Source: Rhodoferax sp. WC2427 (GTDB taxonomy: Bacteria > Pseudomonadota > Gammaproteobacteria > Burkholderiales > Burkholderiaceae_C). From it: DNA of 64,000 nt. A model generated the notes under the pieces. That model was not told where the DNA came from. It did not search any database and was given only the letters and a program-made list of their open reading frames with translations. Both the position numbers and the translations under genes were made by a program. The stretch is taken from NCBI RefSeq assembly GCF_040822085.1, contig NZ_CP162006.1, positions 186,001-250,000 of the forward strand, read 5' to 3'. This document shows, in pieces, positions 8,111 to 22,941 of the stretch (within the stretch, counting starts at the first letter, position 1; every line of letters begins with the position of its first letter).

Positions 8111-9106
8111 ATGGCGACCACCACACGCCTGGTCAAGGCCGCATCGATCGCTGCATCCATTGCCATCTTCACCGCCCTGTCTGCCAGCCTGGCGCTGGCG
8201 CAGGGCTCGTTCCCCAGCCGCCCGGTCACCCTGGTTGTGCCGTTTGCTCCTGGTGGAGGCACCGACACCGGCGCGCGCCTGGTGGCGCAGAAGCTGTCCC
8301 TGAAATGGGGCCAACCGGTGGTGGTGGACAACAAAGGCGGGGCTGCCGGGATGATCGGGGCCGAATTTGTGTCCAAGGCCAAGCCCGACGGCTACACCCT
8401 GCTGATGGGCAACATCGGCACCCAGGCCATCAACCCGGCGCTGTACAAAAAGATGCCCTACGACCCGGACCGCGCCTTCGAGCCCGTCTCGCTGGTGGCC
8501 GAGTTGCCGCTGGTCATGCTGCTCAACCCCCAGGTGCCCGCCAAGACCGCCAAGGAATTCATCACCTACGCCAAGGCCCAGCCGGGCAAGCTGAGCTACA
8601 GCAGCTCGGGCGCGGGCGGCTCCATGCACCTGGCCGCCGAGATGTTCAAAAGCGGCACTGGCACCTTTGTGCTGCACGTGCCCTACCGGGGCGGCGGCCC
8701 GGCCATTGCCGACCTGATCGCGGGCCACGTGCAACTTACCTTCGCCACCGTGCTGGAGAGCAGCGGCCACATCAAGTCGGGCAGCCTGCGGGCCCTGGCC
8801 GTGACCGGCGACAAGCGCGTACCGGCACTGCCCGACGTGCCCACGCTGGCCGAAGCCGCACTGCCGGGCTTCAACTCTATTTCCTGGATCGGCATCCTGG
8901 CCCCCGGCGGCACGCCCAAGGACGTGGTGGACAAAATCTCGGCCGATGTGCGCGAGGTGCTGGCCGCCGACGACACCCAGCGCAGGCTGACCGAACTGGG
9001 CGCGCTGCCCAAGGGCACCACCCCCGCCCAGTTCCAGCAGCTCATCGCCAATGACCGCAAGCGCTACACCCAAATCATCCAGGACCAGAAAATTGGCCTT
9101 GACTGA
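8111..9106 (+). CDS. Bug-family receptor 2
   Basis: Second periplasmic Bug-type binding protein, 331 aa. The start at 8111 (MATTTRLVKAAS) places a standard signal peptide (about residues 1-31, ending SASLALAQG) before FPSRPVTLVVPFAPGGGTDTGAR. Family landmarks include VVDNKGGAAGMIGAEFV, LSYSSSGAGGSMHLAAEMF, VPYRGGGPAIADLIAGHV and LPDVPTLAEAALPG. It is only distantly similar to receptor 1, so it is not a recent duplicate. The hydroxyacid dehydrogenase gene begins 15 bp downstream, suggesting co-transcription and a hydroxy- or keto-acid ligand. Confidence 0.92.
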   Translation: MATTTRLVKAASIAASIAIFTALSASLALAQGSFPSRPVTLVVPFAPGGGTDTGARLVAQKLSLKWGQPVVVDNKGGAAGMIGAEFVSKAKPDGYTLLMGNIGTQAINPALYKKMPYDPDRAFEPVSLVAELPLVMLLNPQVPAKTAKEFITYAKAQPGKLSYSSSGAGGSMHLAAEMFKSGTGTFVLHVPYRGGGPAIADLIAGHVQLTFATVLESSGHIKSGSLRALAVTGDKRVPALPDVPTLAEAALPGFNSISWIGILAPGGTPKDVVDKISADVREVLAADDTQRRLTELGALPKGTTPAQFQQLIANDRKRYTQIIQDQKIGLD

Positions 9107-9121
9107 GCCAGAAAGCACACC

Positions 9122-10069
9122 ATGACCAGCCGCCCCCCACTTTTGCAAAATGGCCCCTTGGCCCCCGCCCTGGAGGCCGCGTTGGCCGCCGAATTTGACG
9201 TGCAGCGCCTGGCCGACCAGGCCGATCCGCAGGGCTTTCTGGCCCAGCATGGCGCGCGCTTCACCGGCCTGGCCACCTCGGCCCCGGCGGGGGCCTCGGC
9301 CGCACTGCTGGCAGCGCTGCCGGGCTTGCGCGTCATCTCCAGCCACGGCGTAGGGCTGGACAAGATCGATCTGGCGGTGGCCGCCCAGCGCGGCATCCAG
9401 GTGGGCTACACACCCGAGGTGCTGAACGACTGCGTGGCCGACCTGGCCATGGCCTTGCTGCTGGACGTGGCCCGCGGCACCAGCGCCGCCGACCGCTTTG
9501 TACGCCGGGGTGCCTGGCCCACGGCCAAGTTTCCGCTGGCGCGCAAGGTCACCGGCCAGCGCCTGGGCATTCTGGGCCTGGGCCGTATTGGCCGCGCCAT
9601 CGCCCAGCGCGCTACCGGCTTCGAGATGCAGATCCGCTACACCAACCGCAAGCCGGTGGCCGGTGTGCCTTGGAAGTTCGAGCCTGCGCTGGTGGAGCTG
9701 GCCCGCTGGGCCGACACCCTGGTGGTCATTGCCGCCGGGGGCGCGTCCACCCACCACCTGGTGAACGCCGAGGTGCTGGACGCGCTGGGCCCCAACGGCT
9801 TTCTGGTCAACGTGGCGCGCGGCTCGGTGGTAGACCAGGCGGCCCTGGTGCAGGCCCTGCAAACCGGCCGCATCGCCGGGGCCGGGCTGGACGTGTACGC
9901 CGATGAACCCCATGTGCCGCCCGAGCTGATGGCGCTGGACAACGTGGTGCTGCTGCCGCACATCGCCAGCGCCACCCGCGAAACCCGCCAGGCTATGGAA
10001 GCGCTGACGGTGGCCAACCTGCGGGCCTTTTATGCCACGGGGCAGGTACAGGCCTCGGCTTTGGCATGA
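9122..10069 (+). CDS. D-2-hydroxyacid dehydrogenase (GhrB/glyoxylate reductase-like)
   Basis: NAD(P)-dependent cytoplasmic oxidoreductase of 315 aa that interconverts 2-keto and D-2-hydroxy acids. The Rossmann motif is LGILGLGRIGRAIAQR. The catalytic triad of the family is visible: Arg in VNVARGSVVD, Glu in DVYADEPHVP, His in LLPHIASATRET. The cofactor-selecting loop reads YTNRKP; the basic residues hint at NADPH, as in glyoxylate/hydroxypyruvate reductases. It lies 15 bp after a Bug receptor gene and probably acts on the acid that the receptor captures. The exact substrate cannot be read from sequence. Confidence 0.92.
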   Translation: MTSRPPLLQNGPLAPALEAALAAEFDVQRLADQADPQGFLAQHGARFTGLATSAPAGASAALLAALPGLRVISSHGVGLDKIDLAVAAQRGIQVGYTPEVLNDCVADLAMALLLDVARGTSAADRFVRRGAWPTAKFPLARKVTGQRLGILGLGRIGRAIAQRATGFEMQIRYTNRKPVAGVPWKFEPALVELARWADTLVVIAAGGASTHHLVNAEVLDALGPNGFLVNVARGSVVDQAALVQALQTGRIAGAGLDVYADEPHVPPELMALDNVVLLPHIASATRETRQAMEALTVANLRAFYATGQVQASALA

Positions 10070-10070
10070 A

Positions 10071-10120
10071 ATAGGCCTCTAGCGCTTATTCCATCAGCGA
10101 GAGCAGCTATTGTTTTTGTA
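10071..10120. repeat. Intergenic palindromic repeat, copy 3
   Basis: ATAGGCCTCTAGCGCTTATT, then CCATCAGCGAGAGCAGCTAT and a T-rich tail. It begins right after the stop codon of the dehydrogenase gene and includes both flanking arms. Confidence 0.88.
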
Positions 10121-10190
10121 GTTTTTGCGGTGGCCCAGGCCGGTTTTTATCCGGCATGATGGAGCCCTGCAAAAACACCGGAGACGCGCC

Positions 10191-11189
10191 ATGTACCCCC
10201 CCATCCTTCCCCGCCGCCAGGTATTGCGGGCGGCCACCGCCGTAGCGGCTGCCAGCCTGCTACCGTCTGCCCGCGCCCAGGCCGCCTGGCCCAGCAAACC
10301 GCTGCGCCTGGTGGTGCCCTTCGCCCCCGGCGGCAGCTCCGAGATCGTGGCCCGCGCCGTGGCGGGCGAGATGGCCAAAACCATCGGCCAGAACGTGTTT
10401 GTGGACAACAAGCCCGGTGCGGCAGGCAACATTGCCATGCAAGAGGTGGCCAACAGCACCGACGACCACACCCTGGTGCTCGGCCACATCGGCACACTGG
10501 CTGTCAACCCCTACATCTTTGCCAAGCTGCCCTACGACGCGGCCCGCGACTTTGCGCCCATCACCCTGGTCAGCAAAGTGCCCAGCCTGTACGTGGTGCA
10601 CCCCGACCTGCCGGTGAAAAACCTCACCGAATTCATCGCCTACGCCAAGACCAAACCCGGCCAGCTGAACTACGGCTCGGCGGGCAACGGCAGCGCCGGG
10701 CACCTGGCGTTTGAGTATTTGAAGATGGTCAGCAACACCTTCATGCTGCACGTGCCCTACCGCGGCACCGGCCCCATGCTGACCGACCTGATGGCCGGGC
10801 GCCTGCAGGCCGCGTCGGTGGGCGCGCCCGCGCTGCTGGCCTTCATCAAGGCAGGCAAGCTGCGCTGCATCGCCACCGGCACGGCCCAGCGCCTGCCGCA
10901 GTTGCCCGACGTGCCCACCGTGGCCGAGCAGGGCTTCAAGGGCTTCGAGATGACCCAGTGGTACGGCCTGATGGTGCCCAGCAAATGGCCCAAGGCGAAC
11001 CAGGCCAAGCTGGAGACCGAGGCCATCAAGGCCACCCGCAGCGCACTGGTGGTGGAAAAGCTGTCCCACGAAACCGCCCTGGCCGTGGGCAGCAGCAGCG
11101 CCGAGTTCGATGCCTTCATCAAGGCCGAGCAGGCCCGCTGGAAGCCGGTGATTGCCCGGGCGCAGATCAAGCCGGAGGGGACGGGTTGA
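10191..11189 (+). CDS. Bug-family receptor 3 with Tat-like leader
   Basis: Third Bug-type periplasmic receptor in the region, 332 aa. The start at 10191 has GGAG upstream. The leader MYPPILPRRQVLRAATAVAA contains a twin-arginine-like RRQVLR, so export by Tat is possible, unlike the other two receptors. The mature part opens with AWPSKPLRLVVPFAPGGSSE. Landmarks are VDNKPGAAGNIAMQEV, LNYGSAGNGSAGHLAFEYL, VPYRGTGPMLTDLMAGR and LPDVPTVAEQGF. It is set off from the preceding gene by a repeat and has its own leader, so it is probably transcribed alone. The ligand is unknown. Confidence 0.9.
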   Translation: MYPPILPRRQVLRAATAVAAASLLPSARAQAAWPSKPLRLVVPFAPGGSSEIVARAVAGEMAKTIGQNVFVDNKPGAAGNIAMQEVANSTDDHTLVLGHIGTLAVNPYIFAKLPYDAARDFAPITLVSKVPSLYVVHPDLPVKNLTEFIAYAKTKPGQLNYGSAGNGSAGHLAFEYLKMVSNTFMLHVPYRGTGPMLTDLMAGRLQAASVGAPALLAFIKAGKLRCIATGTAQRLPQLPDVPTVAEQGFKGFEMTQWYGLMVPSKWPKANQAKLETEAIKATRSALVVEKLSHETALAVGSSSAEFDAFIKAEQARWKPVIARAQIKPEGTG

Positions 11190-11329: not shown

Positions 11330-12367
11330 TCAGTCTCCGTCTTCGTCAAAGAAGCTGATGGTGAACTGCAGGGCCGGGCCCAGGTCTTTTTCGGTGAAGT
11401 GCTGCAGGGCCTTCAAGGCCGTGACCAGCTGGTGCAGCGGCACGCTGGCGGCGGTGGGGTCGCGGCTGGCCAGCAGGCGGTCCATGGCCTGGTCCACGTG
11501 GGCCACGGCCTGCTGCAGCAGCAGGGCCTGGGGCGCATGGTTTTGGGCCAGCAAATAGGCTTGCAGGCTGGGTGCGTCGGTGCCGGACGCGGGGCCGAGG
11601 GCCAGGCTGCGCAAGGCCTGCCAGTGGATGGCCCAGGCCTGTGCTGCATGGCCGCTGGCCTGGCGGTTGAAGGTGGCAAAGCGCCCGGCGTTGAGTTTTT
11701 GCAGGGTGCGGTCGATGTCTTCGCGCCACAGCTTTTGCAGGGCACCGTTCCACAGGTTCAGAAACTCGTACATCGCGTACTCGGCCTCCGGGTCGTCCCA
11801 CCCCGCTTGCACGGCGGCGGCATAGGCGGTTTGCAGGGCCCGGGCTTCGGCCAGGATGTCGCTGGCCAGCTGTTCTGCGTAGCGGCAGGCGGGCGTGTGC
11901 GCGCGCAGCTTGCCGGGCCACAGCAGCCACTCCAGCGCGGGCAGGCCTTTGGCCGGGGCGCTGATGGATTCCAGTGTGGTTGCGTCAGCCGGTGCCGTGC
12001 GCTCCGCCTCGGCAATGGCTTCGGGCCGGGTGGGCATGAAGTCCAGACTGCGCGGCGAGCGGCGCGCCAGCAGCGCCCCGCCCCGCACGGCGGAGAAACG
12101 CTCCCAGGCCGACACGGTGCGCAGCCATTGCTGCCGGGCTTCGGCCCCTGCCGGTGCCTCCGCGGCTGCGTCGGCGGCGCACAGCTGTTGCAGGCTGCCG
12201 ACCAGGGTTTGGCTTTGCATGGCAAAGTCGTCGGCCCCCGGCACATACCACTGGGTGTAGATGCCGCGCACAAAGCGGGTGTAGGCCTCAAACGGCTGGT
12301 CGGCAGGAGCCGCCCAGGCCGGGGCGGTGCAGCCCAGGGTGATCCACAGCAACAGGGTGCGCAGCAT
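11330..12367 (-). CDS. Imelysin (M75)-family periplasmic protein
   Basis: Secreted protein of 345 aa with signal peptide MLRTLLLWITLGCTAPAWAA. The rest is largely helical and fits the imelysin/IrpA group: WERFSAVRGG, a central KGLPALEWLLW, the paired helices of EYAMYEFLNLWNGAL, and QLVTALKALQHFTEKDLG near the end. The GxHxxE metal motif of classical imelysins appears here as GLPALE, so the His is missing. Imelysin-like proteins are linked to iron handling in other bacteria. Here the gene is last in a minus-strand run with a porin and a phosphoesterase, 24 bp after the porin. Its role there is unclear. Confidence 0.85.
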   Translation of the reverse strand: MLRTLLLWITLGCTAPAWAAPADQPFEAYTRFVRGIYTQWYVPGADDFAMQSQTLVGSLQQLCAADAAAEAPAGAEARQQWLRTVSAWERFSAVRGGALLARRSPRSLDFMPTRPEAIAEAERTAPADATTLESISAPAKGLPALEWLLWPGKLRAHTPACRYAEQLASDILAEARALQTAYAAAVQAGWDDPEAEYAMYEFLNLWNGALQKLWREDIDRTLQKLNAGRFATFNRQASGHAAQAWAIHWQALRSLALGPASGTDAPSLQAYLLAQNHAPQALLLQQAVAHVDQAMDRLLASRDPTAASVPLHQLVTALKALQHFTEKDLGPALQFTISFFDEDGD

Positions 12368-12391
12368 GGGGCTCCTACTCAGAACGTGCTG

Positions 12392-13465
12392 TCAGAACTT
12401 GTGGCGCAAGGCCACTTCGTAGCCGGTGCCATTGCGGGCGCTGGCTTCGGAGCCGTTTTTGGCGAAGGTTTTCATGCGCTCCTGCGCCAGGGATAAGGCC
12501 ACCAGGGTGCGTTTGCTGAAGTCGTACTGGTAGCCCAGGCCCAGGCGCACGCTGTCCTTGTCGCTGGAATGGTCGCCGGTGGTCTTGATCTGGTCGCCAT
12601 CGATCCAGCGCAGCGAAGCCAGCAGCCGGTGTTGGCCCAGCGGCACGATGGTGCCCAGGGTCAGCACCCGCTCGGCCCCGGTGTCGGCCAGGTTCAGCTT
12701 GGACGAGCGTGCGTACAGGCCGAGCAGCTTGAAGCGCGCGAAGTCGTACGAGCCCGCCAGGGTGACGGTGGTGCGGGCATCGTCACCGGCTTTGTCGGGC
12801 GAGCCTTCGATAAAGCTCTCGCGCTGGTACGAGCTGCTGAGCGACAGCGGACCCTGGTCGTACAGCGCCACCAGGCCGTAGGCCCGGGTGTGCACGCCTT
12901 CGCCGGGGGCGGCACCCACACCCAGCTTGACACCGCTCCAGCGCGGGGTGGCGTAGTAGATGGCGTTGTTCCATTTCTGGAACACCCGGGCGGTGCGGCT
13001 GCCGTTGGCGGCCAGGCTGTCGCCGTCAAAGGCTTCAAAGCGGCTGGCATTGGCCTCGTCGGCCGGGCTGGACTGTTTGCCCAGGGTGATGCTGCCCAGC
13101 TTCTGGCTTTGCAGGCCGACGTAGGCGTACTGCTTGAACAGCTGGCCGGTGGCGTTCTTGTCGGTTTGCACCGCGCCGGTGTCGGCATCGAAGCGCGACT
13201 CCAGGCGGAACACGGCGGCCAGGCCGTCGCCCAGGTCTTCCTTGCCGATGAAGCCAAAGCGTCCGGCCGAGCTGTTGCCCACGCTCCATTGGCGGTCGTC
13301 GTTTTTCGACAGGTCGGTGGGCGCGTTGCGCAGGCCCACATCGACCCGGCCATAGAGCGTGACACCGGTCTTTTCGCTGGATGTTTGGCTCTGGGCTGTG
13401 GTGCCCAGCAAGGCCAGGCCAATGGCGGCCAGGGCGCGTACCGGCAAGTGGTTGGGATGTTGCAT
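12392..13465 (-). CDS. Gram-negative porin, Omp32-like
   Basis: Outer-membrane trimeric porin of 357 aa. A signal peptide ends near GTTAQSQTSS. The protein then shows VTLYGRVDVGL at the first strand, SAGRFGFIGKEDLGDGLAAVFRLES, KQYAYVGLQSQKLGSITLGKQ, and a C-terminal Phe (YEVALRHKF) used by the BAM complex. Length and strand motifs fit the anion-selective Omp32/porin_4 family of Comamonadaceae. It lies 42 bp after the phosphoesterase gene and 24 bp before the imelysin gene. It is therefore probably co-expressed with them and may admit the phosphorylated substrate, by inference. Confidence 0.93.
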   Translation of the reverse strand: MQHPNHLPVRALAAIGLALLGTTAQSQTSSEKTGVTLYGRVDVGLRNAPTDLSKNDDRQWSVGNSSAGRFGFIGKEDLGDGLAAVFRLESRFDADTGAVQTDKNATGQLFKQYAYVGLQSQKLGSITLGKQSSPADEANASRFEAFDGDSLAANGSRTARVFQKWNNAIYYATPRWSGVKLGVGAAPGEGVHTRAYGLVALYDQGPLSLSSSYQRESFIEGSPDKAGDDARTTVTLAGSYDFARFKLLGLYARSSKLNLADTGAERVLTLGTIVPLGQHRLLASLRWIDGDQIKTTGDHSSDKDSVRLGLGYQYDFSKRTLVALSLAQERMKTFAKNGSEASARNGTGYEVALRHKF

Positions 13466-13507
13466 GCTTGTCTCCTCGTTGTTGTTAAAAGTGCAGGGTC
13501 AGGGAAA

Positions 13508-14893
13508 TCAGAACTTCAGGGCCCGGGCCAGGCTGGTGGCCTTGGCATCGCGGGTGCCCAGCGGGGCCAGGCCAAAACGGTCTTCGATCAGCTTCAGGAT
13601 GGAGACGGTTTCGTACTGGGTGTGGTCGATGTGGCCGCCTTCGCTGAATGGCGACACCACGATGGCGGGAATGCGCGAGCCGGGGCCCCAGCGGTCGCCC
13701 TTGGGCGGTGCAACGTGGTCCCAGAAGCCGCCGTTTTCGTCGGTGGTGACGATGACCACGGTGTTCTTCCACTGCGGCCCGGCCATGATGGCGTTGACGA
13801 TCTCGGTGGCTTCGGCATCGCCCGCGGCTACGCTGCCACGGCCCGGGTGCATGTTCATGCCGCCCGTGGGTTTGTAGAACGCCACCGGGGGCAGGGTGCC
13901 GCCGCGCACATCGGCCATGAAGTCTTCGCGGTCCTTCAGGTGGGCCTTGCGCTCGGCGGCGCTGTCGATGAAGCGCTTGAAGGCGATGAGCGGCTGGTGG
14001 TGGTACGAAAAGCTGGCCACGCCCTTGCCCGCCTGGGTAGCGGCCACGGCACGGTTGAAGTCCTGGCCGTAGTAGGCCCAGGGAATGCCCTTGTCGCTCA
14101 GGCGGTCGCCAATGGTGGGGGCGGTTTGCGGTGGCAGCAGCGCCTGTTTTTTGGTGGGATCAAAAAGCCAGGTGCTTTGCATGGTGTTGACCGCATAGCC
14201 GTCTTGCGTCACATAGGCTTCGGGCTCATCCGGCTCGATGGATCGGCCTTGGGCGTCCAGTGCCACGATGTGGTGGGGCGCGTTGGCGTACACCGGGGTG
14301 CAGGCGCAGACCAGCCAGAAGTGGTTCAGAAACGAACCGCCAAAGGCCGACTGGAAGAAGTTGTCCGCCAGGGTGAAGCGCTGCGCCAGCTTCCACAGGC
14401 CCAGCGAGCTGCCGTCGTAGGTGCCCATCAGCAGGCCGCCGCTGTTGCCGTCGGCCACGAAGCGGTCGTTGCGCCCGCCATTGATCTGGCGCTGGTTGGC
14501 CCAGAAGGCGTGGATGGGGCTGAACATCGTGTCATTCAGGCCGACTTTGGGGTCGAGACGGAACGGGCCGTTCGGGATGGGGGCGCTCAGGCGTGCATCG
14601 GGCTTGCCGGATTTGTCGGCAACGGGCGGCGGCAGGACGGCGTAGGGCCGGTTGTTGGCATCCACCTGCACGACGCCCTGGCCCAGCGCCCGCGCATTGG
14701 CCACGCCGTTGGCACCGGGGTACAGGCCGAACAGGTGGTCGAAGCTGCGGTTCTCCAGGTAGACCACCACGATCTGGCCGATTTTGGCCAGTTGGGGGTC
14801 GGGTGCAGACGCTTGTTGGGCGGGCTGGTAGGTGCTGCAAGCGGACAGCAGCAAGGCGGTCGCCAGGGCGACGGGTCGTAAAGGCAGGCGCAT
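13508..14893 (-). CDS. Phosphoesterase-family lipoprotein (AcpA/phospholipase C-like)
   Basis: Surface or periplasmic phosphoesterase of 461 aa in the alkaline-phosphatase-like superfamily that includes AcpA and phospholipase C. The start at 14893 has AGGAG at 7-11 bases upstream. The lipobox LLLSAC puts the lipidated Cys at residue 19. Metal and active-site signatures are VVYLENRSFDHLFG (about residues 44-57) and, near residue 390, VTTDENGGFWDHVAPP; HTQYETVSILKLIEDRF is the usual C-terminal end. A longer start at 14932 would lie inside the operator and is rejected. The gene has its own promoter region with a palindrome identical in core to the one before the ABC transporter operon. Substrates could be phosphomono- or diesters. 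Confidence 0.9.
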   Translation of the reverse strand: MRLPLRPVALATALLLSACSTYQPAQQASAPDPQLAKIGQIVVVYLENRSFDHLFGLYPGANGVANARALGQGVVQVDANNRPYAVLPPPVADKSGKPDARLSAPIPNGPFRLDPKVGLNDTMFSPIHAFWANQRQINGGRNDRFVADGNSGGLLMGTYDGSSLGLWKLAQRFTLADNFFQSAFGGSFLNHFWLVCACTPVYANAPHHIVALDAQGRSIEPDEPEAYVTQDGYAVNTMQSTWLFDPTKKQALLPPQTAPTIGDRLSDKGIPWAYYGQDFNRAVAATQAGKGVASFSYHHQPLIAFKRFIDSAAERKAHLKDREDFMADVRGGTLPPVAFYKPTGGMNMHPGRGSVAAGDAEATEIVNAIMAGPQWKNTVVIVTTDENGGFWDHVAPPKGDRWGPGSRIPAIVVSPFSEGGHIDHTQYETVSILKLIEDRFGLAPLGTRDAKATSLARALKF

Positions 14894-14928
14894 CAAAGTC
14901 TCCTGTGGTGTAAGGATAAAAACGTAAC

Positions 14929-14940
14929 GCACACGTGTGC
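14929..14940. promoter_or_regulatory. LacI-type operator, copy 2 (GCACACGTGTGC)
   Basis: Perfect 12-bp palindrome centred about 41 bp before the phosphoesterase ATG. The same core, inside a longer palindrome, is centred about 48 bp before the ABC binding-protein gene at 21836-21851. On the minus strand a TTGCAC (14937-14942), 18-bp spacer and TATCCT could be the promoter, with the operator overlapping the -35. No third copy was seen in the window. Confidence 0.75.
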
Positions 14941-14950
14941 AACGCAGTGC

Positions 14951-14973
14951 AAAAAAAGGGGTGTAGTGGCCCC
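14951..14973 (-). terminator. Intrinsic terminator after the MINPP-like gene
   Basis: Read on the minus strand: GGGG, an eight-base loop, CCCC, then seven T residues. It begins 12 bp past the stop codon of the histidine phosphatase gene and lies before the phosphoesterase promoter, so it divides the cluster into two transcripts. Confidence 0.6.
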
Positions 14974-14984
14974 GTTGGGCTGGC

Positions 14985-16583
14985 TTACAGGCTGGTGTGC
15001 CCGTAGCAGGTCTTCAGCTTGGTGTAGTCGTAGTAGTGGCTACCCGTCGCAAAACGTGCGCTGTCGCACGCGGCCTTGAAGTCGGTTTCTTTCTCGTTGT
15101 AGAGCATCTTGACCAGCACCGTGCCGCTGCTGTTCTTCACCACGTCCCACTGCATATTGGCCGCCATGGGGGCCACATAGTCACCGCGCCAGGGGTTGTT
15201 GGCGTAGCTGTACAGGCTGGCCAGGGGCTGCTGTTGCAGCACATTCTTCAGGCCCATCTTGGAGGCGAAGGGGATGACGATTTCGGCATGTGCAAAGCGC
15301 AGCTTGGCCACGTGGCCGAGGTTGCCTTTGGCAATGGCATCGACTTCGGTGAAGAAGTCGTCTTCCAGGATTTGCGCCATCTTCCAGGTCACGCTACCTT
15401 TTTCCAGGATGCCGGGGCCCATCTTGTAGAAGTCGGCCGCATCCTGGGTAAAGGCAAAGTACTGTGCCTGCGCCAGTGGCATGTAGCCGGAGAAATCGAC
15501 CTTGGCCTCGCTCTTCATGGCCGGGGCAATCACGTACAGCTCGTACAGCAGGGAGGCGGCTTCGCCCAGGTTGCTGATGCCGGTTTTGCCGTCGCCCGCC
15601 AGGGTGCTGGTGAACTTGCCGTCGTCGCTGCTGTAGGTGAAGGTGCCGGTGTTGGCAAAGCTGTAGGTGCCCGCTTCGATCTTGTCTACAAAGGCTTTGG
15701 TGAACAACCGCTCCAGCACCACGCGCCCGGCGGTTTTGGCTGCGGGGTCGGCCAGGATGGCGGCTTGTTTGGCGGCCAGGTCGCTATCTTTCAGCCAGTT
15801 TTGGAAGGCCTGGCTGTCCTGGTAGGTGGGGTACAGCGGGTCGGCGGGGTTGGTGACCAGGTCGGTGGCGGCCACCAGCTTATGGAAGTACAGCAGGAAG
15901 TGGTTGGTTCCGGCCGGTTGGGCCACGGGGGCTGCCGCCGGGTAGGGCGCGGGTGCGGCCGGGTAGTTCACCAGGCTGGTCAGGTTGGTTTGGGCGGCCA
16001 GCAGCGACTTGACGAAGAAGGCCCCGCTGTCTACTGCGCGGTCTACGCCCGAGGTGACCACCACGATCTGGCGGGGGCTGCTGGCGGCGGCGGCACCGGC
16101 CTGGGTGAACAGGGCCGCGTTGCGGCTCAGCATGCGTTGGGCGAGTTGTGTGTGTTCGGTGATGCCGACCTGGGTTTCATTGCCATAGCCGGGCTTGCTG
16201 ATGCCCGCCACGTTGTAGCCGAGCAAAAAGTTGGCCTTCATGATCTTCAGCACATCGGGGCCCAGCTGGGCACCAAGGGCGGTCAGGGCACCGTCGTCCG
16301 AGGCTTTTTTCCACATGTTGTAGACGGCCAGGTCGTACTTCAGGCTGGACAAGCCGCGCGAGCCGTGGCGCGCCATGAGCTGGGTGTAGACCGTGCTGTA
16401 GCCGCTGGGGGGCGCTTCGTAGGTGGCGGCATTTTGCTGCGGGCTGTACGGTGTCTTGGTTTGGTAATAGAGGTTGGCGCTGGCGCTGGGTGCGTCATCG
16501 CCACCTCCGCAACCGGCCAGGCTAAGGGCGACGCTGCCCAGGACGTAGGCGAGCGGGCGGCGGAATACGGTGGTGTGGACCAT
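14985..16583 (-). CDS. Histidine-phosphatase lipoprotein, MINPP-like (phytase candidate)
   Basis: Exported histidine acid phosphatase of 532 aa. The lipobox LSLAGC (Cys25) indicates a lipoprotein. The catalytic RHGxR motif is MARHGSRG (residues 72-77). A third conserved Arg is in TSGVDRAVDSG (about 182). The proton donor motif is HAE (residues 432-434, in RFAHAEIVIPF), which marks the multiple inositol polyphosphate phosphatase branch; classical acid phosphatases and AppA-type phytases have HD. It should release phosphate from inositol phosphates or similar polyol phosphates at the cell surface. AGGAAA precedes the ATG. The gene is last in an operon with an ABC importer and an inositol-monophosphatase-family gene 45 bp upstream. 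Substrate is inferred from motif and context. Confidence 0.87.
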   Translation of the reverse strand: MVHTTVFRRPLAYVLGSVALSLAGCGGGDDAPSASANLYYQTKTPYSPQQNAATYEAPPSGYSTVYTQLMARHGSRGLSSLKYDLAVYNMWKKASDDGALTALGAQLGPDVLKIMKANFLLGYNVAGISKPGYGNETQVGITEHTQLAQRMLSRNAALFTQAGAAAASSPRQIVVVTSGVDRAVDSGAFFVKSLLAAQTNLTSLVNYPAAPAPYPAAAPVAQPAGTNHFLLYFHKLVAATDLVTNPADPLYPTYQDSQAFQNWLKDSDLAAKQAAILADPAAKTAGRVVLERLFTKAFVDKIEAGTYSFANTGTFTYSSDDGKFTSTLAGDGKTGISNLGEAASLLYELYVIAPAMKSEAKVDFSGYMPLAQAQYFAFTQDAADFYKMGPGILEKGSVTWKMAQILEDDFFTEVDAIAKGNLGHVAKLRFAHAEIVIPFASKMGLKNVLQQQPLASLYSYANNPWRGDYVAPMAANMQWDVVKNSSGTVLVKMLYNEKETDFKAACDSARFATGSHYYDYTKLKTCYGHTSL

Positions 16584-16628
16584 GGGGTTTTGTTTCCTGG
16601 AAGGGTGGGTAAACAGGGCGGTGGGACG

Positions 16629-17426
16629 TTACAGCGCGGTGACGGGCTCAATCAGCGCCCGCAGCGGCGCATACAGGTGGGGACCGGCGGCGATGATGGG
16701 GTTGCCGTCGTGCAGGCCGTTGTGGGCCAGGAAGTCGTTGACCTGGCCCCCGGCCTCCACCACCAGCACGATGGCGGCCAGGCAGTCCCACGAATTGATG
16801 TGCGGTTCGTAGTAGCCGATGAGCCGGCCCGCGGCCACGTAGGACAGCATCAGCGCGCCGGAGCCGTTGCGGATGAACATGCCGCCACCCGACAGCACCC
16901 GGTCCAGAAAGGGCACAAAGGCACTCACCGGCACCCGGTGTGAAAAGCCCACGCCCAGCACCCCTTCGGTGATGCTGCGGGCGCTGTGGGCCTGCATGGG
17001 CAACTGGTTCACAAACGCGCCCTGGCCTGCGCAGGCGTGGAACATCTCGTCGCTGTTCGGATCGAACACCACGCCGATCACCGGCTTGCCCGCATGCATG
17101 ACCGCGATGGACAGGCACCAGGCATGCATGCCGTTGACGAAGCAGGCCGTGCCGTCGATCGGGTCGATCACCCACAGGTAGTCGGCATCGGCGTGGTCGA
17201 GCCCGCCTTCTTCGCCCAGAAAGCCATCGTCGGCAAAGCGCGCCAGCACCTGGGCGCGGATGTAGAGCTCGGTGTCTTTGTCCGCCGCGCTGACCATGTC
17301 CTGCAAGCCCTTGGACTCGATCACCAATTGGTCGCGCTTGCGGAACCATTCCAGCGCCTGCAGCCCGGCCTGGCGGGCGATGCTTTGGGCCAGCGCGTAG
17401 CGCGCGTCGATCGCCGCGGTGCTCAT
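16629..17426 (-). CDS. Inositol-monophosphatase-family phosphatase
   Basis: Cytoplasmic Mg-dependent sugar/polyol phosphatase of 265 aa. Metal-site motifs are all present: Glu in GEEGG (71-75), DPIDGTACF (88-96) and WDCLAA (213-218). It could hydrolyse inositol monophosphate, histidinol phosphate or another sugar phosphate; the family is not specific from sequence alone. The ATG at 17426 overlaps the stop of the ABC ATPase gene by 4 bp (ATGA). This ties it to the importer and suggests that it dephosphorylates the imported molecule. No signal peptide is seen. Confidence 0.93.
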   Translation of the reverse strand: MSTAAIDARYALAQSIARQAGLQALEWFRKRDQLVIESKGLQDMVSAADKDTELYIRAQVLARFADDGFLGEEGGLDHADADYLWVIDPIDGTACFVNGMHAWCLSIAVMHAGKPVIGVVFDPNSDEMFHACAGQGAFVNQLPMQAHSARSITEGVLGVGFSHRVPVSAFVPFLDRVLSGGGMFIRNGSGALMLSYVAAGRLIGYYEPHINSWDCLAAIVLVVEAGGQVNDFLAHNGLHDGNPIIAAGPHLYAPLRALIEPVTAL

Positions 17427-18499
17427 GCGCGGCCTCCCACAATGCACACGCCGTGGTTGGCAAAGCCGATGCCGACCGAGGAGCCAACCGCCAGCGGCTG
17501 CTGCATATCGGTTTGGCGCACAAACAATTCACCCAGCGGCGACTCCACCGCGTACTGCATTTCGGTACCTAAAAAGGCGGCGTGGCGCACCTGGCCCACC
17601 AGGATGTGCTGGCTGGTGGCAGGGGCCAGATGCACCGCGTCGGGCCGCACCGCAATGCGAATCTCGCCACGGTAGGCGCGGGGGTTCGCCAGCTGCACCG
17701 CCAGGCCACCGACCAGGCAGTCGGCCTGGCCTGCGGACACGTGGCCGAGGATTTCGCCGGTGACGCGGTTGGCGTCGCAGATGAAGTCGGCCACGAACTC
17801 GTCGGCGGGCGTGTCGAACAGTTCGCGTGGCGTGCCCTGCTGGGCGATGCGCTGGTTGTTCATGACGATGATCTGGTCGGAGACGGCCAGGGCTTCTTCC
17901 TGGTCGTGCGTCACGTATACGGCGGTGAGTTGCAGGCGCTGCTGGATCTCGCGGATTTCTTCGCGCACGCGGCGGCGCAGCTTGGTGTCCAGGTTCGACA
18001 GCGGCTCGTCCAGCAGCAGCACCTGGGGCTTGAGCACCAGGGCCCGGGCCACGGCCACGCGCTGCTGCTGGCCGCCGGAGAGTTCGCTGGGCAGGCGCGG
18101 GCCGTAGTCGTTCAGGCCGACCAGGCGCAGGCCTTCCAGGGCCTGCTCGCGGGCATCGGCCTTGCGGGCACCGCCCACCTCGAGGCCGTAGGCCACGTTC
18201 TCCAGCACCGTCATGTGCGGGAACAGCGCATACGACTGGAACACCATGCTGACGTTGCGCTCGATGGCCGACTGCTGGGTCACGTCCTGGCCACCGATGA
18301 AGATGCGGCCCTGGCTCACATGCTCCAGCCCGGCAATCAGCCGCAGCGTGGACGTCTTGCCGCAGCCGCTGGGGCCGAGCAGGGTGACCAGCGTGCCCTG
18401 CGGAATGCTGAACGACACATCGTTGACGGCAACGACCTTGCCGTATTGTTTGGTGACGCGCTCGAAGACCAGCGCGCCCTGCGTGGGGGCAGTACTCAT
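17423..18499 (-). CDS. ABC transporter ATPase, FbpC/AfuC/PotA type
   Basis: Energises import by the permease encoded upstream; 358 aa. Walker A is GPSGCGKTS, the Q-loop MVFQSYALF, the signature LSGGQQQRVAVARAL, Walker B VLLLDEPLSNLD, and the switch His is in YVTHDQEEA. A C-terminal TOBE-like regulatory domain (about residues 245-350) includes IRIAVRPDAVHL. It overlaps the permease gene by 4 bp at its start and the phosphatase gene by 4 bp at its end, so the three are translationally coupled. The family serves ferric iron, polyamines, 2-aminoethylphosphonate and hexose phosphates. Confidence 0.94.
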   Translation of the reverse strand: MSTAPTQGALVFERVTKQYGKVVAVNDVSFSIPQGTLVTLLGPSGCGKTSTLRLIAGLEHVSQGRIFIGGQDVTQQSAIERNVSMVFQSYALFPHMTVLENVAYGLEVGGARKADAREQALEGLRLVGLNDYGPRLPSELSGGQQQRVAVARALVLKPQVLLLDEPLSNLDTKLRRRVREEIREIQQRLQLTAVYVTHDQEEALAVSDQIIVMNNQRIAQQGTPRELFDTPADEFVADFICDANRVTGEILGHVSAGQADCLVGGLAVQLANPRAYRGEIRIAVRPDAVHLAPATSQHILVGQVRHAAFLGTEMQYAVESPLGELFVRQTDMQQPLAVGSSVGIGFANHGVCIVGGRA

Positions 18500-20736
18500 G
18501 ATTCAACCTTTAAGGAATAGGACGTACGCAGCGCCCCTGTATCGCCCTTTGGGCTTACAGGGGGAACTTGCGTAAGTACTGGGGAAAAGACGGGGGCGGG
18601 AGTGGTCCCTTCGACGCGTTCGACCCGGCGCAACTGCCGTTTGCCGACCAGACTCTGTGCGGCCAGCACGATGACCAGCATGATGGCGATCAAGGCGCTG
18701 GAGTAGGCGATGGCGATGCCGTAGGAGCCGTTTTCCACCAGGCCGACGATGTAGGCCGTGGCCATGTTGTACTTGGCGCTGACCAAGAACACCACCGCGC
18801 TGATGGAGGTGATGGAGCGCACAAAGCTGTACACCAGGGCCGCGCTCAAGGCCGGGCGCATCAACGGCAAGATCACCCGCCGGGCAGTGGTGAAGCTGTT
18901 GGCACCCAGCATGGTGGAGGCCTCGTCCAGGCTGCGGTCGAGCTGGCTCATGGCCGCCATACCGCCGCGCAGGCCGACCGGCATGTTGCGGAACACAAAG
19001 CACAGCACCAGGATGGCGGCCGTGCCGGTCAGCTCGATCGGCGGCATGTTGAAGGCCAGGATGTAGCTGATGCCGATGACCGTACCGGGGATGGCAAAGC
19101 TCAGCATGGTGGCGAACTCGAACGCCGCCTTGCCCGCAAAGCGCTGGCGCACCAGCAGCCAGGCGGCTGTGAGACCCAGGGCGGCGGTCAGCGGGGCCGA
19201 GACACCGGCAATCATCAGGCTGGTAAACAGCGAATCCCAGGCGGTGCCCACCCAGCGCAGGCCGTGCTCGCCGGATTCGATGCCGAAGGCGCTGGCGTAG
19301 TGGCGCAGCGTGAAGCTGTTGTCGCGGCCCCACTGGTTGACAAAGCCACCACCCAGAATCATGCCGTACAGCACCAGGGTGAAGCCGGTCCACAGCGTGG
19401 CAACCACCGCCAGCACGGCGGACAGGCGGCGGTCCAGCCCGGCGTGCTGGCCGTTGTCGGCCTTGCCCGTCACCGTGGTGTACGACTTGTTGCCCAGCCA
19501 GTGGCGCTGGGCCAGGAAAGCGCTGACCGCGAACACCAGCAGGATCAGACCCAGCCCGGCGGCCCGACCACCATCGTTCTGCGCGCCGACGATAGCGAAG
19601 TAGATTTCGGTGGATAGCACGCCAAAATTGCCGCCCAGCACCATGGGGTTGCCGAAGTCGGCCATGCTCTCGATGAAGGCCACCAGGAAGGCATTCGCCA
19701 GGCCGGGACGCATCAAAGGCAGTGAGACGCGCCAGAAGGTGGTCCAGCGCGTGCCGCCCAGGGTTTGCGAGGCTTCTTCCACCGAAGGGCTCACGCCTTC
19801 GACCACGCCGATCAGCACCATGAAGGCAATCGGTGTGAACGACAGCAACTGCGCCAGCCAGACACCATAGAACCCGTACAGGCCCCGCCCGGCGGGCACG
19901 TCAAAGGCTTGCGACACCCAGGCCGACACCACGCCGCTGCGGCCAAACAGCAGGATCAGCGCCAGGCCGATCACGAAGGGCGGGGTGATGATGGGCAGCA
20001 CCGTCAGTGCCCGCAGCAGGCGCTTGAAGCGAAAGCCGGTGCGTGTCACCACCAGCGCAAAGGTCAGGCCCAGCAGGGTCGAACCGGCGGCGGTGCAGAC
20101 CGCCAGGAACAAGGTGTTCCAGGCCACGCCGCAACGCCGGGTACCGCTGACGCAGCCCAGGGACCAGATGCGGCTGTCGGCCACCCGTGCCCAGGCGGCT
20201 TGCAGGCTGAAGCCCGTGCCCTGCTCGAACGCGCTGGCCAGCACCCGCAGTACCGGGAACATCACAAACAGCCCCACCAAGGCGACCAGCATGCCGATCA
20301 CGCCGCAGACGAAAACATCGCCCCGGCAGGCACCCATCCAGGCGGCTCCGGTGGTCAGCACAAACACCGCACTGGCGCTGAACAGCAGCGCGCCCCAGCC
20401 CAGGCCGGGCAGACCGGTGCCCGCAGGGCCCCAGCCCAGCCAGGCCAGCCAGCCCAGGGCCGCCAGGGCCAGCGCGCACAGGACGGCACCCTGGGTGCGG
20501 CGTGGCAGTGGTGCCATGCTGACCAGGCCGATGGCGACCGGCCAGAGCAGCAGCGGCAGCAGGCCGAAGCGCTGCAGGCCCAGTACCTGCCATAGCGCGG
20601 CGGCGGTGGTGTCGTTGCCGGGCCAGCCGGCATGCAGCCATTCGCCGCCCCAGAATCCCGCTTCCTGGGCGTGCCAGGGCAGCAGCACGCTGGCGGTCAG
20701 GGCCAGCATCAGCCAGCCTCGTAAAGACTTATTCAC
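18496..20736 (-). CDS. Fused dual-domain ABC permease, AfuB/FbpB-like
   Basis: Inner-membrane permease of 746 aa carrying both transmembrane halves in one chain. An extra hydrophobic N-terminal region (about residues 1-165) precedes permease domain 1 (about 200-410; EAA loop EASQTLGGTRWTTFWRVSLP near 320). Domain 2 spans about 495-700 (EAA loop EASTMLGANSFTTARRVILP near 604). This organisation and length match the AfuB/FbpB group. Translation probably starts at a GTG (20736) with GAGAGA upstream. The last 30 or so residues (SPKGDTGALRTSYSLKVES) are not part of the fold and coincide with a nested hairpin in the DNA. It lies 33 bp downstream of the binding-protein gene. Confidence 0.9.
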   Translation of the reverse strand: MNKSLRGWLMLALTASVLLPWHAQEAGFWGGEWLHAGWPGNDTTAAALWQVLGLQRFGLLPLLLWPVAIGLVSMAPLPRRTQGAVLCALALAALGWLAWLGWGPAGTGLPGLGWGALLFSASAVFVLTTGAAWMGACRGDVFVCGVIGMLVALVGLFVMFPVLRVLASAFEQGTGFSLQAAWARVADSRIWSLGCVSGTRRCGVAWNTLFLAVCTAAGSTLLGLTFALVVTRTGFRFKRLLRALTVLPIITPPFVIGLALILLFGRSGVVSAWVSQAFDVPAGRGLYGFYGVWLAQLLSFTPIAFMVLIGVVEGVSPSVEEASQTLGGTRWTTFWRVSLPLMRPGLANAFLVAFIESMADFGNPMVLGGNFGVLSTEIYFAIVGAQNDGGRAAGLGLILLVFAVSAFLAQRHWLGNKSYTTVTGKADNGQHAGLDRRLSAVLAVVATLWTGFTLVLYGMILGGGFVNQWGRDNSFTLRHYASAFGIESGEHGLRWVGTAWDSLFTSLMIAGVSAPLTAALGLTAAWLLVRQRFAGKAAFEFATMLSFAIPGTVIGISYILAFNMPPIELTGTAAILVLCFVFRNMPVGLRGGMAAMSQLDRSLDEASTMLGANSFTTARRVILPLMRPALSAALVYSFVRSITSISAVVFLVSAKYNMATAYIVGLVENGSYGIAIAYSSALIAIMLVIVLAAQSLVGKRQLRRVERVEGTTPAPVFSPVLTQVPPVSPKGDTGALRTSYSLKVES
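18534..18563. other. Nested hairpin inside the permease 3' end
   Basis: CCCCTGTA (18534-18541) pairs with TACAGGGG (18556-18563) around an inner GCCC-TTT-GGGC stem. It lies in the codons for the last residues of the permease, about 35 bp before the ATPase start. It could tune downstream translation or mRNA decay, or be a small inserted palindrome extending the reading frame. Confidence 0.55.
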
Positions 20737-20769
20737 AGACCATATCTCTCGGTTGGGTGGTGGGGAGAC

Positions 20770-21795
20770 TTAGCGGGGCAGCGAGAAGATCTCGTCGTCC
20801 CAGCGTTTGAGCAGGCGCTTGCGCACCTCGTCACTGCCGTACTTGGCAAAGTCGTAGCTGATGGTTTTCACGCTCTCCAGGCGCGGCGCCTTGGCCGGGA
20901 TGGTGGCGGTCTTGTTCGACGGCACCTGGAAGGCGCTGGCCTTGGCGGCCAGGGACTGCACATCGGCGCGCAGCGCGAATTCGTAGAAGCGCTTGGCCAC
21001 CGCCATGTTCTTCGCGCCCTTGACCAGGCTCATGGAGCCAATCTCGTAACCCGTGCCTTCACAGGGCGAGATCACCTCCACCGGAAAACCGGCCACGGTT
21101 TCCTTCAGCAGATCGTGCTGGAAGGTGATGCCCACCGCGGTTTCTCCGCGCGCCAGCGCCTTGGCCGGGGCCGAGCCGCTCTTGGTGTACTGGCTGACGT
21201 TGTCGTTCATCTTCTTCATGAAGGCGAAGGCCTCGTTCTCGCCCTGCAACTGCACCAGGGTGGCAATGGTGGCGTAGGCCGTGCCCGAGGAATTGGGGTT
21301 GGCGATCTGCACCTCGCCCTTCAGGGCCGGGTTCAACAGGTCCTTCCAGCACTGGGGCGGCGCAATCTTCTTTTGCTTCAGCACTTCGGGGTTGTAGCCA
21401 ATGCCCAGCAGACCGGCGTAGATGCCGACGGTGCGGTAGCCGGAAATTTCGGCCTGCTTCTGCGCCCAGGGGTGCAGCTTGTCGAGCTGGGGCGATTTGT
21501 ACACCTCGGTAAAGCCATCGGCGGCCGCCTGCAGGTGCGGGTCGCCGGTACCGGCCCACCAGATGTCGGTCTTGGGGTTGCTGGCTTCAGCGCGGATCTG
21601 GGCAAAGATTTCACCGGCGCTTTTGCGCACCATGGAAACCTCCACCTGGGTCTCTTTTTCAAACGCGTTGCGCATCAGTTCGCACCAGTCGTTGTCGGCG
21701 GCGCAGAGCACGTTGAGGCGGTCGGCCGCCTGGCTGGCCAGGGGCAGGATCAGCAGGGAAGATAAGACGAGTTGTCGGGCCAGTAGGCGTTGCAT
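20770..21795 (-). CDS. ABC solute-binding protein, AfuA-like
   Basis: Periplasmic receptor of 341 aa. The start at 21795 has GGAGA upstream and gives signal peptide MQRLLARQLVLSSLLILPLA ending SQAAD. The mature protein begins LNVLCAADNDWCELMRNAFEK, continues VSMVRKSAGEIFAQIRAEA and DIWWAGTGDPHLQAAADG, and has IANPNSSGTAYATIATLVQ and SPCEGTGYEIGSMSLVKGA. These resemble AfuA, which binds hexose phosphates, and the putative aminoethylphosphonate receptors more than iron-binding FbpA. It opens the importer operon directly behind a LacI-type operator. Neighbouring phosphatases argue for a phosphorylated organic ligand. The ligand is not proven. Confidence 0.9.
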   Translation of the reverse strand: MQRLLARQLVLSSLLILPLASQAADRLNVLCAADNDWCELMRNAFEKETQVEVSMVRKSAGEIFAQIRAEASNPKTDIWWAGTGDPHLQAAADGFTEVYKSPQLDKLHPWAQKQAEISGYRTVGIYAGLLGIGYNPEVLKQKKIAPPQCWKDLLNPALKGEVQIANPNSSGTAYATIATLVQLQGENEAFAFMKKMNDNVSQYTKSGSAPAKALARGETAVGITFQHDLLKETVAGFPVEVISPCEGTGYEIGSMSLVKGAKNMAVAKRFYEFALRADVQSLAAKASAFQVPSNKTATIPAKAPRLESVKTISYDFAKYGSDEVRKRLLKRWDDEIFSLPR

Positions 21796-21835
21796 GGTTT
21801 GTCTCCAGAAGTAGTGGCGCATTTTTGGCAGCGCT

Positions 21836-21851
21836 TTGCACACGTGTGCAA
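21836..21851. promoter_or_regulatory. LacI-type operator, copy 1 (TTGCACACGTGTGCAA)
   Basis: Perfect 16-bp palindrome with a central CG, in the 117-bp gap between the lacI-type gene and the binding-protein gene. Its centre is about 48 bp before the ATG. Its inner 12 bases recur before the phosphoesterase gene. Size and symmetry are typical for LacI-family sites. Confidence 0.8.
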
Positions 21852-21912
21852 TGTACGGCGAATAGTGAAGGGCGCGATCTAGGGTCTTCCCTGAGACGGT
21901 GTGGGAGAGTTC

Positions 21913-22941
21913 TCAGGGGCGCAAGGTGGAGCGCTCGACCAGCGCCACGGGGAGCTGCAGCACGCGGCTGGGCATGTCGGGTTCCTGCATGCGCTCTGCC
22001 AGGCAGGTGACGGCCGCTTCGGCCAATGCGTTCACGTCCTGGCGCAGGGTGGACAGCGCGTAGGCGGACAAGCCCGCCATGGGAATGTCGTCGAAACCGA
22101 CCACCTGGAAGTCCCCGGGCACGTGCAGGCCAAAATGCCGGCGCGCACCGTCCACCAGGCCGCAGGCCAGCACGTCGTTGACGCAAAACACACCGTCTGG
22201 CCGGGTCTGCGCATCGGCCAGCAGGGCCGGTGCGGCGTCGAATCCACCGGCATAGGTGGCCGCTGCGGCTTCCACGCGGCGCAACACCACCCCACCGTGC
22301 TGGACCGCGGCGGCCAGTGTCTGCACGAATCCTTCGCCGCGCACGCTGGCGCTGTAGGTCGTCGTGGCCGAGCTGAGGAACACCAGCTTGCGGGCGCCCT
22401 TTGCCAGCAGGGCCCGCGCCGCCATGGCACCGCCTTCAAAATGGTCGCTGTTGACTACGTCCACACCCACCAAATCGGGCGCACGGTTGATCATGGCCAC
22501 CGGAACCCGCAGGCGCAAATACTCTTTGGCCAGCTGGATGGGCGGCGTGCCCGAGGTCAGGATCACCCCCGCGATCCGGTACTGCAACAGATGCCGCAAG
22601 GACTTGGCCAGCTGGGCCGGCTCGCTGGCATCCATCAGCAGGGGCGCCAGCGAACGCAGCGCCAGATGGTGGGTGATGGGCCCGAGCAGGCTTTGCAGGA
22701 ACGGGTCGTCAAAGCCCTTGACCACCACCCCCACCAGATTGCTTTGGCGCTGGATCATGCTGCGCGCCAGCATGTTCACCTGGTAACCCAGCGCCTCTGC
22801 CGCCCGCTGCACTTTCTCGCGGGTTTCCGGCGACACGCTGGCACCTTCGGTAAAGGTGCGCGAGACCGCCGAACGGGAAACGCCCGCTTTGCGGGCGACA
22901 TCGGCAGCGGTAATCCAACCGGAGGGGGACTCTGTGGTCAT
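21913..22941 (-). CDS. LacI-family regulator of the organophosphate cluster
   Basis: DNA-binding regulator of 342 aa. The N-terminal helix-turn-helix reads ITAADVARKAGVSRSAVSRTF followed by the hinge-helix region ALGYQVNMLARSM. A periplasmic-binding-protein-like effector domain follows (about residues 60-335), with the family landmark PDGVFCVNDVLACGLVDGAR and VVGFDDIPMAGL. It is encoded on the same strand just upstream of the importer operon, 15 bp behind xth. The perfect palindrome between it and the importer, repeated before the phosphoesterase gene, is its probable binding site. The effector is probably the imported solute or a product of it, by analogy. Confidence 0.92.
   Translation of the reverse strand: MTTESPSGWITAADVARKAGVSRSAVSRTFTEGASVSPETREKVQRAAEALGYQVNMLARSMIQRQSNLVGVVVKGFDDPFLQSLLGPITHHLALRSLAPLLMDASEPAQLAKSLRHLLQYRIAGVILTSGTPPIQLAKEYLRLRVPVAMINRAPDLVGVDVVNSDHFEGGAMAARALLAKGARKLVFLSSATTTYSASVRGEGFVQTLAAAVQHGGVVLRRVEAAAATYAGGFDAAPALLADAQTRPDGVFCVNDVLACGLVDGARRHFGLHVPGDFQVVGFDDIPMAGLSAYALSTLRQDVNALAEAAVTCLAERMQEPDMPSRVLQLPVALVERSTLRP

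Follow-up and report, generated by a model that had tools for sequence, protein, structure and literature searches.

A putative LacI-controlled operon for inositol phosphate acquisition in Rhodoferax sp. WC2427

Phytate is the main phosphorus store of plants (PMC9430895). It ranks among the major forms of organic phosphorus, and bacterial import of its partly dephosphorylated products seems little described in the open-access literature. For AfuA, the receptor of the Actinobacillus hexose-phosphate importer AfuABC, Sit et al. defined a His205/Asp206/Glu229 motif for sugar-phosphate binding, and the S37A substitution lowered binding but did not abolish it (PMC4546632). Herein, we describe a gene cluster in which an importer of this type lies together with phosphatases and a LacI-family regulator.

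The window, that is, the whole stretch of DNA analysed, covers 64,000 nt of Rhodoferax sp. WC2427 (NZ_CP162006.1, 186,001-250,000), and cluster positions are given in window numbering. The initial annotation had placed nine minus-strand genes at 11330-22941, and all nine ORFs were found. Profile searches also recovered the families that it had named (LacI, SBP, two-domain permease, ABC ATPase, Inositol_P, His_Phos_2, Phosphoesterase/TIGR03397, Porin_4, and Peptidase_M75), the His_Phos_2 match being barely above the cut-off (24.0 vs 23.6 bits). No Rfam family was detected in the window at gathering thresholds. The features are as follows:

21913..22941, minus strand: LacI-family regulator, the proposed repressor of the cluster (PF00356 and PF13377 above cut-off)
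21836..21851, no strand: predicted operator 1, a perfect 16-bp palindrome, TTGCACACGTGTGCAA, upstream of the receptor gene (0 mismatches)
20770..21843, minus strand: AfuA-type periplasmic receptor (best PDB sequence match 4r72, AfuA, E 2.4e-90)
18496..20736, minus strand: fused two-domain ABC permease, AfuB-like (PF00528 in two stretches; TIGR03262 under cut-off)
17423..18499, minus strand: ABC ATPase with a TOBE domain, AfuC-like (PF00005, PF08402)
16629..17447, minus strand: inositol monophosphatase-family phosphatase, IMPase (PF00459, E 4.8e-49)
14985..16583, minus strand: MINPP-type histidine phosphatase with a lipoprotein-like signal (three best PDB sequences, E 1.3e-66 to 1.2e-64)
14927..14942, no strand: predicted operator 2, an imperfect copy upstream of acpA (2 mismatches against the 16-mer, 1 against the 14-mer)
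13508..14932, minus strand: AcpA/PLC-like acid phosphatase with a lipoprotein-like signal (TIGR03397, 444 bits, cut-off 362.75)
12392..13465, minus strand: Gram-negative porin (PF13609, E 4.1e-43)
11330..12367, minus strand: imelysin-domain protein (PF09375, 67 bits, cut-off 23.5)

The receptor gene was listed with a GTG start (21843) that falls within operator 1, and it likely starts at the ATG at 21795. The likely starts of acpA and the IMPase gene are the ATGs at 14893 and 17426, respectively. From the coordinates, the permease and ATPase genes share an ATGA overlap at 18496-18499, and the ATPase and IMPase genes share one at 17423-17426 if the IMPase begins at the in-frame ATG, as had been described. 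Lipobox-like motifs, judged by eye, were seen near the N-termini of MINPP (LAGC) and AcpA (LSAC), in line with the proposed lipoprotein nature of both phosphatases.

The best explanation of the cluster, and judging from sequence a probable one, is a LacI-repressed operon for the acquisition of inositol phosphates. The joint role first proposed, in which phosphates of inositol or of other polyols or sugars are taken up and dephosphorylated, appears sound and can be narrowed to inositol phosphates on four grounds: the LacI operator is shared, iol genes are neighbours of the cluster in other genera, the receptor belongs to a subgroup linked with IMPase or iol genes, and one relative has a phytase-like protein in place of MINPP. 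Independent support for such scavenging is strong. Substrates would diffuse through the porin. Outside the cytoplasm, MINPP and AcpA would cleave phosphates from phytate or from less phosphorylated inositols. Inositol monophosphate (or a low phosphate) may then be brought in by the AfuABC-type importer, and from it the cytoplasmic IMPase would liberate inositol and phosphate, the inositol presumably feeding into the iol pathway, whose genes lie at another site in the genome. We propose that LacI sits on the palindrome and comes off it when inositol or one of its phosphates is bound.

The whole gene order, together with an upstream xth-like gene, was found in two more genomes of the genus (L011/G039 and L143/G152). 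The order is therefore not due to chance, and the reservation that it might be unique to this strain did not hold. In another genus of the family (G007), eight of the nine genes occurred in order (lacI-sbp-perm-ATPase-IMPase-MINPP-acpA-porin) and were followed by iolC-iolD-iolE; iolC scored 1017 bits (cut-off 600), and iolD, iolE, iolB, and iolG were also above cut-off. Janthinobacterium carried the same type of LacI and operator at acpA-MINPP, an iolG-C-D-E-B run, and an orthologous receptor-permease-ATPase-IMPase operon. Its operators (G545 and G546) were located upstream of acpA, at the start of iolG, and upstream of the gene for a 64%-identical receptor with permease, ATPase, and IMPase, so that in G545 one operator was common to phosphatase, importer, and iol genes. 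In this genome (L036), iolG, iolC, iolD, iolE, iolB, and a methylmalonate-semialdehyde dehydrogenase were above cut-off. In the Rhodoferax genome itself, iolC, iolD, iolE, and iolB were above cut-off; they lie away from the cluster and have no operator, the operator being found at the cluster only.

At up to 2 mismatches, the 16-mer of operator 1 would be expected 0.01 times by chance in the window. When the 14-bp core was searched in the 4.78-Mb genome at up to 1 mismatch, two places were found, both within the cluster, and the reversed control gave none; the exact core occurred at operator 1 only. Operator sites in G039 (two), G152 (two), G154 (one), and G007 (three) were all inside the cluster, and the LacI relatives of these genomes were 94%, 98%, 88%, and 70% identical, respectively. 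Further LacI relatives (55-56%) were found in nine Janthinobacterium loci. Each Janthinobacterium genome had one operator elsewhere, and the one example inspected (L184) had no clear target. The nine-gene set is probably switched together by one repressor. In a sample of the order, LacI was found in 2 of 399 genomes (its own and G434), with at most five candidates per genome scored, so that orthologues may have been missed. The LacI of G434 (49%) was accompanied by the exact operator at a different importer (SBP_bac_1) and a porin; the operator alone therefore does not prove a role in inositol metabolism.

With three phosphatases in one cluster, the genes might serve Pho-type scavenging of phosphate from any organophosphate, the goal being phosphorus rather than inositol. 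The E. coli-type Pho box consensus was used as the query, and no Pho-box-like site was found in the window (0 matches at up to 3 mismatches vs 3.0 expected). As the operator is also common to the cluster and iolG in Janthinobacterium, we regard this explanation as improbable.

AfuA was the nearest PDB sequence to the receptor, as its initial description as AfuA-like implied, and the sugar contacts His205, Asp206, and Glu229 of AfuA are kept as His243, Asp244, and Glu267. At the phosphate end, Gly36-Ser37 is changed to Ser-Ala; of the two phosphate contacts, Ser37 is thus Ala, and Thr150 is kept. Of 15 loci examined with a receptor of this Ser36 type, 14 showed linkage to IMPase or iol genes, compared with 0 of 17 with other receptors; these counts are not independent because the receptors are related. 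At two loci (L149 and L150) the receptor was linked to IMPase with no iol genes nearby. In G082 and G465, Ser36-type importers adjoined iol genes (by similarity) and MINPP was absent. A receptor search with E up to 1e-125 in the same order sample gave 7 of 399 genomes including its own; here too at most five candidates per genome were scored, so that orthologues may have been missed. We see an even chance that importers of the Ser36 subgroup are devoted to inositol (mono)phosphate, with a change at the phosphate end of the binding pocket as their mark, and that with LacI, MINPP, and IMPase they form a regulon leading from phytate to central metabolism, the substrate being trimmed outside, imported phosphorylated, and finished inside.

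The retained contact residues make hexose phosphate a possible ligand; nanomolar binding of G6P, F6P, and S7P is the mark of an AfuA receptor. A hexose- or heptose-phosphate importer, the true AfuABC function, could thus operate with general phosphatases and an IMPase-family enzyme acting on sugar phosphate, and the best profile of LacI was indeed a ribose-regulator model, with a score under its cut-off. The inositol link would then be incidental, which is difficult to reconcile with the position of such genes beside iol genes in G007, Janthinobacterium, G082, and G465 and with the operator at iolG. Moreover, the genome carries a second AfuABC-type set (C1:3757640-3761034) whose receptor has the ordinary Gly36 pocket, although this set may not be intact because its permease match contains stops. 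Overall, this alternative is unlikely, if the least unlikely of those considered. The best NCBIfam names of the importer parts, phnS2, PhnU2, and PhnT2, would instead suggest a 2-aminoethylphosphonate importer of the PhnSTUV-2 type. However, all three parts scored under the curated TIGR03261/03262/03265 cut-offs (199 of 393, 265 of 593, and 357 of 458 bits), so that these names were rejected, and profile searches matched none of the nine genes to a phosphonate-catabolism family; such a function is most improbable.

The motifs of MINPP agree with inositol phosphates as substrates: it contains the RHGSRGL heptapeptide at residues 72-78 and the HAE proton donor at 432-434, as in the Acinetobacter AC1-2 phytase (PMC8313252). 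Its three best PDB sequences were MINPP or histidine acid phosphatase, and at L144 a PF13449 'phytase-like' protein occupies its place. Two observations on MINPP count against the proposed operon. In the metagenome assembly L011/G039, an in-frame stop interrupts the gene at codon 178 of 532, and MINPP mostly occurs without the cluster: this lacI and acpA were absent near 70 of the 80 loci examined (of 98 found). The IMPase has the family motifs DPIDGT and GEE, and no signal sequence was seen in it by eye.

Phytate binds iron, and the phosphatases might free iron from it for a Fbp-like importer acting with the imelysin in uptake of iron or a ferric complex. An imelysin gene does lie within the cluster, and the G007 iol cluster also holds two imelysin-domain genes, a di-haem oxidoreductase, and DUF1513. 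But the receptor is nearest to AfuA, a sugar-phosphate receptor, with ferric-binding proteins matching far more weakly, and the imelysin sequence lacks GxHxxE, the motif of imelysin/ICMP iron-linked proteins, although PF09375 is above cut-off. These two points weaken the iron explanation, and no relative of the imelysin above 80 bits was present in the Janthinobacterium stretches searched. We consider it very unlikely.

The proposed inositol-phosphate operon adds a subgroup of importers, with a residue that may set their specificity, together with a repressor and its putative operator. If the proposal is true, the iron or phosphonate names often given to such importers would need correcting. 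No description of this gene set was recognised in the open-access literature among the matches listed. InoEFGK, named an inositol or inositol-phosphate transporter, has this role in common with the one proposed for the window importer, and IolR of Thermotoga is a ROK protein (PMC3750489, PMC12008989). As for the receptors, InoE is a binding protein of another type. In iol inositol-catabolism clusters (survey PMC9430895), 'phosphatase' and 'LacI' each occur 0 times in the survey's main text; the surveyed pathway is present in the Rhodoferax genome and adjacent in relatives, and differs here in that iolG of Janthinobacterium has its operator in common with the upstream genes for inositol phosphates. 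Bacterial MINPP phytases (PDB 6rxd, 7zgf; Acinetobacter AC1-2, PMC8313252, PMC9432691) have the RHGSRGL and HAE motifs in common with the window MINPP, whereas the latter is encoded within an importer operon that also has lacI and putative operators. The pyridoxal-phosphate importer P5PAB (PMC8427247) has a homologous receptor (6wce, E 5.9e-75), but P5PA has Ala at both the Asp206 and Glu229 positions, the two acidic residues being retained in the window receptor, and a pyridoxal-phosphate role was rejected on this ground. IpsA, the LacI-type inositol sensor of Corynebacteria, likewise uses a palindromic operator and is released by myo-inositol, yet it acts on inositol synthesis and cell-wall genes, activating some (PMC3899939). 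AfuABC (PMC4546632) shares the receptor-permease-ATPase architecture and His205, Asp206, Glu229, Thr150, Tyr103, and Gln269, whereas the window receptor has Ser36-Ala37 instead of Gly36-Ser37 at the phosphate end, and its importer is joined to IMPase, MINPP, AcpA, porin, and LacI.

The nine minus-strand genes of the cluster were present at the coordinates of the initial annotation, and the domains it had assigned to them were recovered in family searches. The features of the window discussed here are as follows.

11330-22941, minus strand: cluster of lacI, receptor, permease, ATPase, IMPase, MINPP, acpA, porin and imelysin genes
21836-21851: operator 1, before the receptor gene
14927-14942: operator 2, before acpA
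8063-11189: what we take to be two TctC/Bug-like binding-protein genes either side of a 2-hydroxyacid dehydrogenase-like gene, adjoining the cluster

The intergenic region separating the receptor gene from lacI contains TTGCACACGTGTGCAA, a perfect palindrome, and a second, imperfect copy lies upstream of acpA. The receptor gene probably starts at ATG 21795 and acpA at ATG 14893, both later than the listed starts; this shift is of consequence, since with the listed starts the two genes run into the operators. With up to one mismatch allowed, the 14-bp core occurred at two sites in the whole genome of the strain, both within the cluster, and the reversed control pattern at none. The genome also carries iolC, iolD, iolE and iolB above cut-off (C1:3155500-3175000), and no such operator was present in that region.

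Eight other genomes were scanned. Every operator site lay in the cluster in G039 (two), G152 (two), G154 (one) and G007, from another genus of the family (three). Elsewhere, G434 had one site, the Janthinobacterium genomes G545 and G546 had four each, and G082 had none; the reversed control gave one site each in G082, G545 and G546 and none in the other five. The G434 operator was exact and lay at the start of an SBP_bac_1-type importer gene, with a 49% LacI and a porin alongside (L145:8860-14394). Among MINPP relatives, 98 were found in genome contigs and 80 were kept. The exact 14-mer was found in 10 of these 80 loci, precisely those in which cluster-type lacI and acpA scored at least 120 bits. 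Nine of the 10 are Janthinobacterium, and the tenth is a Rhodoferax record that coincides in coordinates with G039. Absence here means absence within the stretch examined, as many of the stretches end at contig ends. MINPP without the cluster is the usual state (70 of the 80 kept loci).

The gene order, which the initial annotation had proposed as a check, was shared with other genomes: all nine genes stood in the same order in G039 and G152, with what is presumably an xth-like gene upstream, and eight were kept in order in G007 (porin 32%), where no imelysin gene adjoined the cluster. In G039, a Rhodoferax metagenome assembly, the MINPP frame of 532 codons is interrupted by an in-frame stop at codon 178 (L011:10001-11596), so that either the gene is broken or the assembly is in error. 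Seven of the nine genes were kept in G154, the porin being absent; a PF13449 'esterase-like activity of phytase' protein (L144:12752-14128) occupies the exact MINPP position of the sister genomes and is a non-homologous replacement. The permease was found at 91% or more in four of eight genomes of the genus. Among 150 family genomes, MINPP (E up to 1e-20) occurred in 6, LacI (E up to 1e-75) in 3 and AfuA-type receptors (E up to 1e-60) in 38, the strain itself being included in all these counts.

In G007, iol genes on the same strand come after the cluster: first iolC (1017 bits, cut-off 600), iolD (907, 715) and iolE (391, 290), and further on iolB (330, 205) and iolG (407, 355). Between iolE and iolB, inside the iol cluster (L163:5183-10280), lie an imelysin-domain gene, a di-haem oxidoreductase gene, another imelysin-domain gene (55% to that of the window) and DUF1513, in that order.

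In Janthinobacterium, lacI-acpA-MINPP is convergent to a dehydrogenase-iolB-iolE-iolD-iolC-iolG run, which was seen whole in 2 of 9 loci (L029 and L036), the two whose stretch extends far enough. At L036 of G545, iolG (424, 355), iolC (1082, 600), iolD (900, 715), iolE (411, 290), iolB (347, 205) and methylmalonate-semialdehyde dehydrogenase (724, 449) were above cut-off. Past iolG in both G545 and G546 lie the receptor (64%), permease (61%), ATPase (64%) and IMPase (62-63%) genes, joined by a porin in G545, the genome examined for it. The operators stand upstream of acpA, at the iolG start and upstream of the receptor gene, and each genome has one elsewhere; the one examined, an isolated exact copy (L184:8206), has a di-haem cytochrome c peroxidase-type gene close by but no clear target. 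A TonB-dependent receptor gene lies upstream of lacI in seven of the nine loci (120 bits), and two tandem MINPP-type genes were observed at L185:7078-10331 (G546) and L036:10001-13244 (G545).

The cluster receptor was nearest by sequence to AfuA (4r72, E 2.4e-90), followed by 8x1a and P5PA. In AfuA numbering, His205, Asp206, Glu229, Thr60, Tyr103, Ser148-Gly149-Thr150 and Gln269 are conserved, and Ser-Ala stands at Gly36-Ser37. His205, Asp206 and Glu229 are essential in AfuA, and Ser37 and Thr150 are phosphate contacts (Sit et al., PMC4546632). We examined 32 receptor neighbourhoods, with flanks mostly of 8-10 kb and shorter at contig ends; 13 further receptor rows (11 genomes) of the smaller tree and lower-ranked matches of the family receptor search fall outside this count. 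IMPase or iol genes were linked in 14 of 15 Ser36 loci versus none of the 17 others (Fisher p 3e-8). This p-value overstates independence because the receptor rows are related: one cluster, shared by close relatives, accounts for five of the 15. In the sole exception, L197, the receptor gene lies near a contig end. One change on the receptor tree suffices for Ser36, at weak branch support (74/35); the IMPase-linked group had 85/63 in the smaller tree. L149 and L150 have the IMPase link with no iol genes nearby, their neighbours having been named in part. Ser36-type importers adjoin iol genes, named by similarity, in G082 (L148) and G465 (L200) without MINPP; therefore, the link between importer and inositol pathway holds even without the phosphatases. 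At L195:9550-11459, a Ser36 receptor gene is followed by a 57% IMPase gene, and no AfuB-like permease was found in that stretch at 100 bits. The strain has a second AfuABC-type set (G000:C1:3757640-3761034) with a 53% receptor, a Gly36 pocket and a permease match with stops within.

Most likely, the porin would let the substrate in, MINPP and AcpA would trim it, the AfuABC-type importer would take up a lower inositol phosphate, and IMPase would release inositol into the iol pathway, with LacI as the probable sensor of inositol or its phosphate. Linkage of the genes is shown by the sequences, and each biochemical step of the scheme is an inference. Several results speak against it: the G434 operator at a different type of importer, the IMPase link without iol genes at L149 and L150, the additional operator in each Janthinobacterium genome, the many MINPP loci without the cluster, and the lack of the operator at the strain's own iol genes. 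No description of a regulon of this make-up was recognised in the open-access literature searched, and every part of the system is of a known kind. The IMPase-family protein has DPIDGT and GEE, and the acpA product is above the TIGR03397 cut-off. The histidine phosphatase, with a Pfam score barely above cut-off, matches MINPP structures in PDB sequence comparison and carries RHGSRGL and HAE, the motifs given for the Acinetobacter AC1-2 MINPP phytase (PMC8313252). InoEFGK has been called an inositol or inositol-phosphate transport system (PMC12008989, PMC3750489). The cluster regulator resembles IpsA in being of the LacI type, release by myo-inositol being the feature described for IpsA (PMC3899939).
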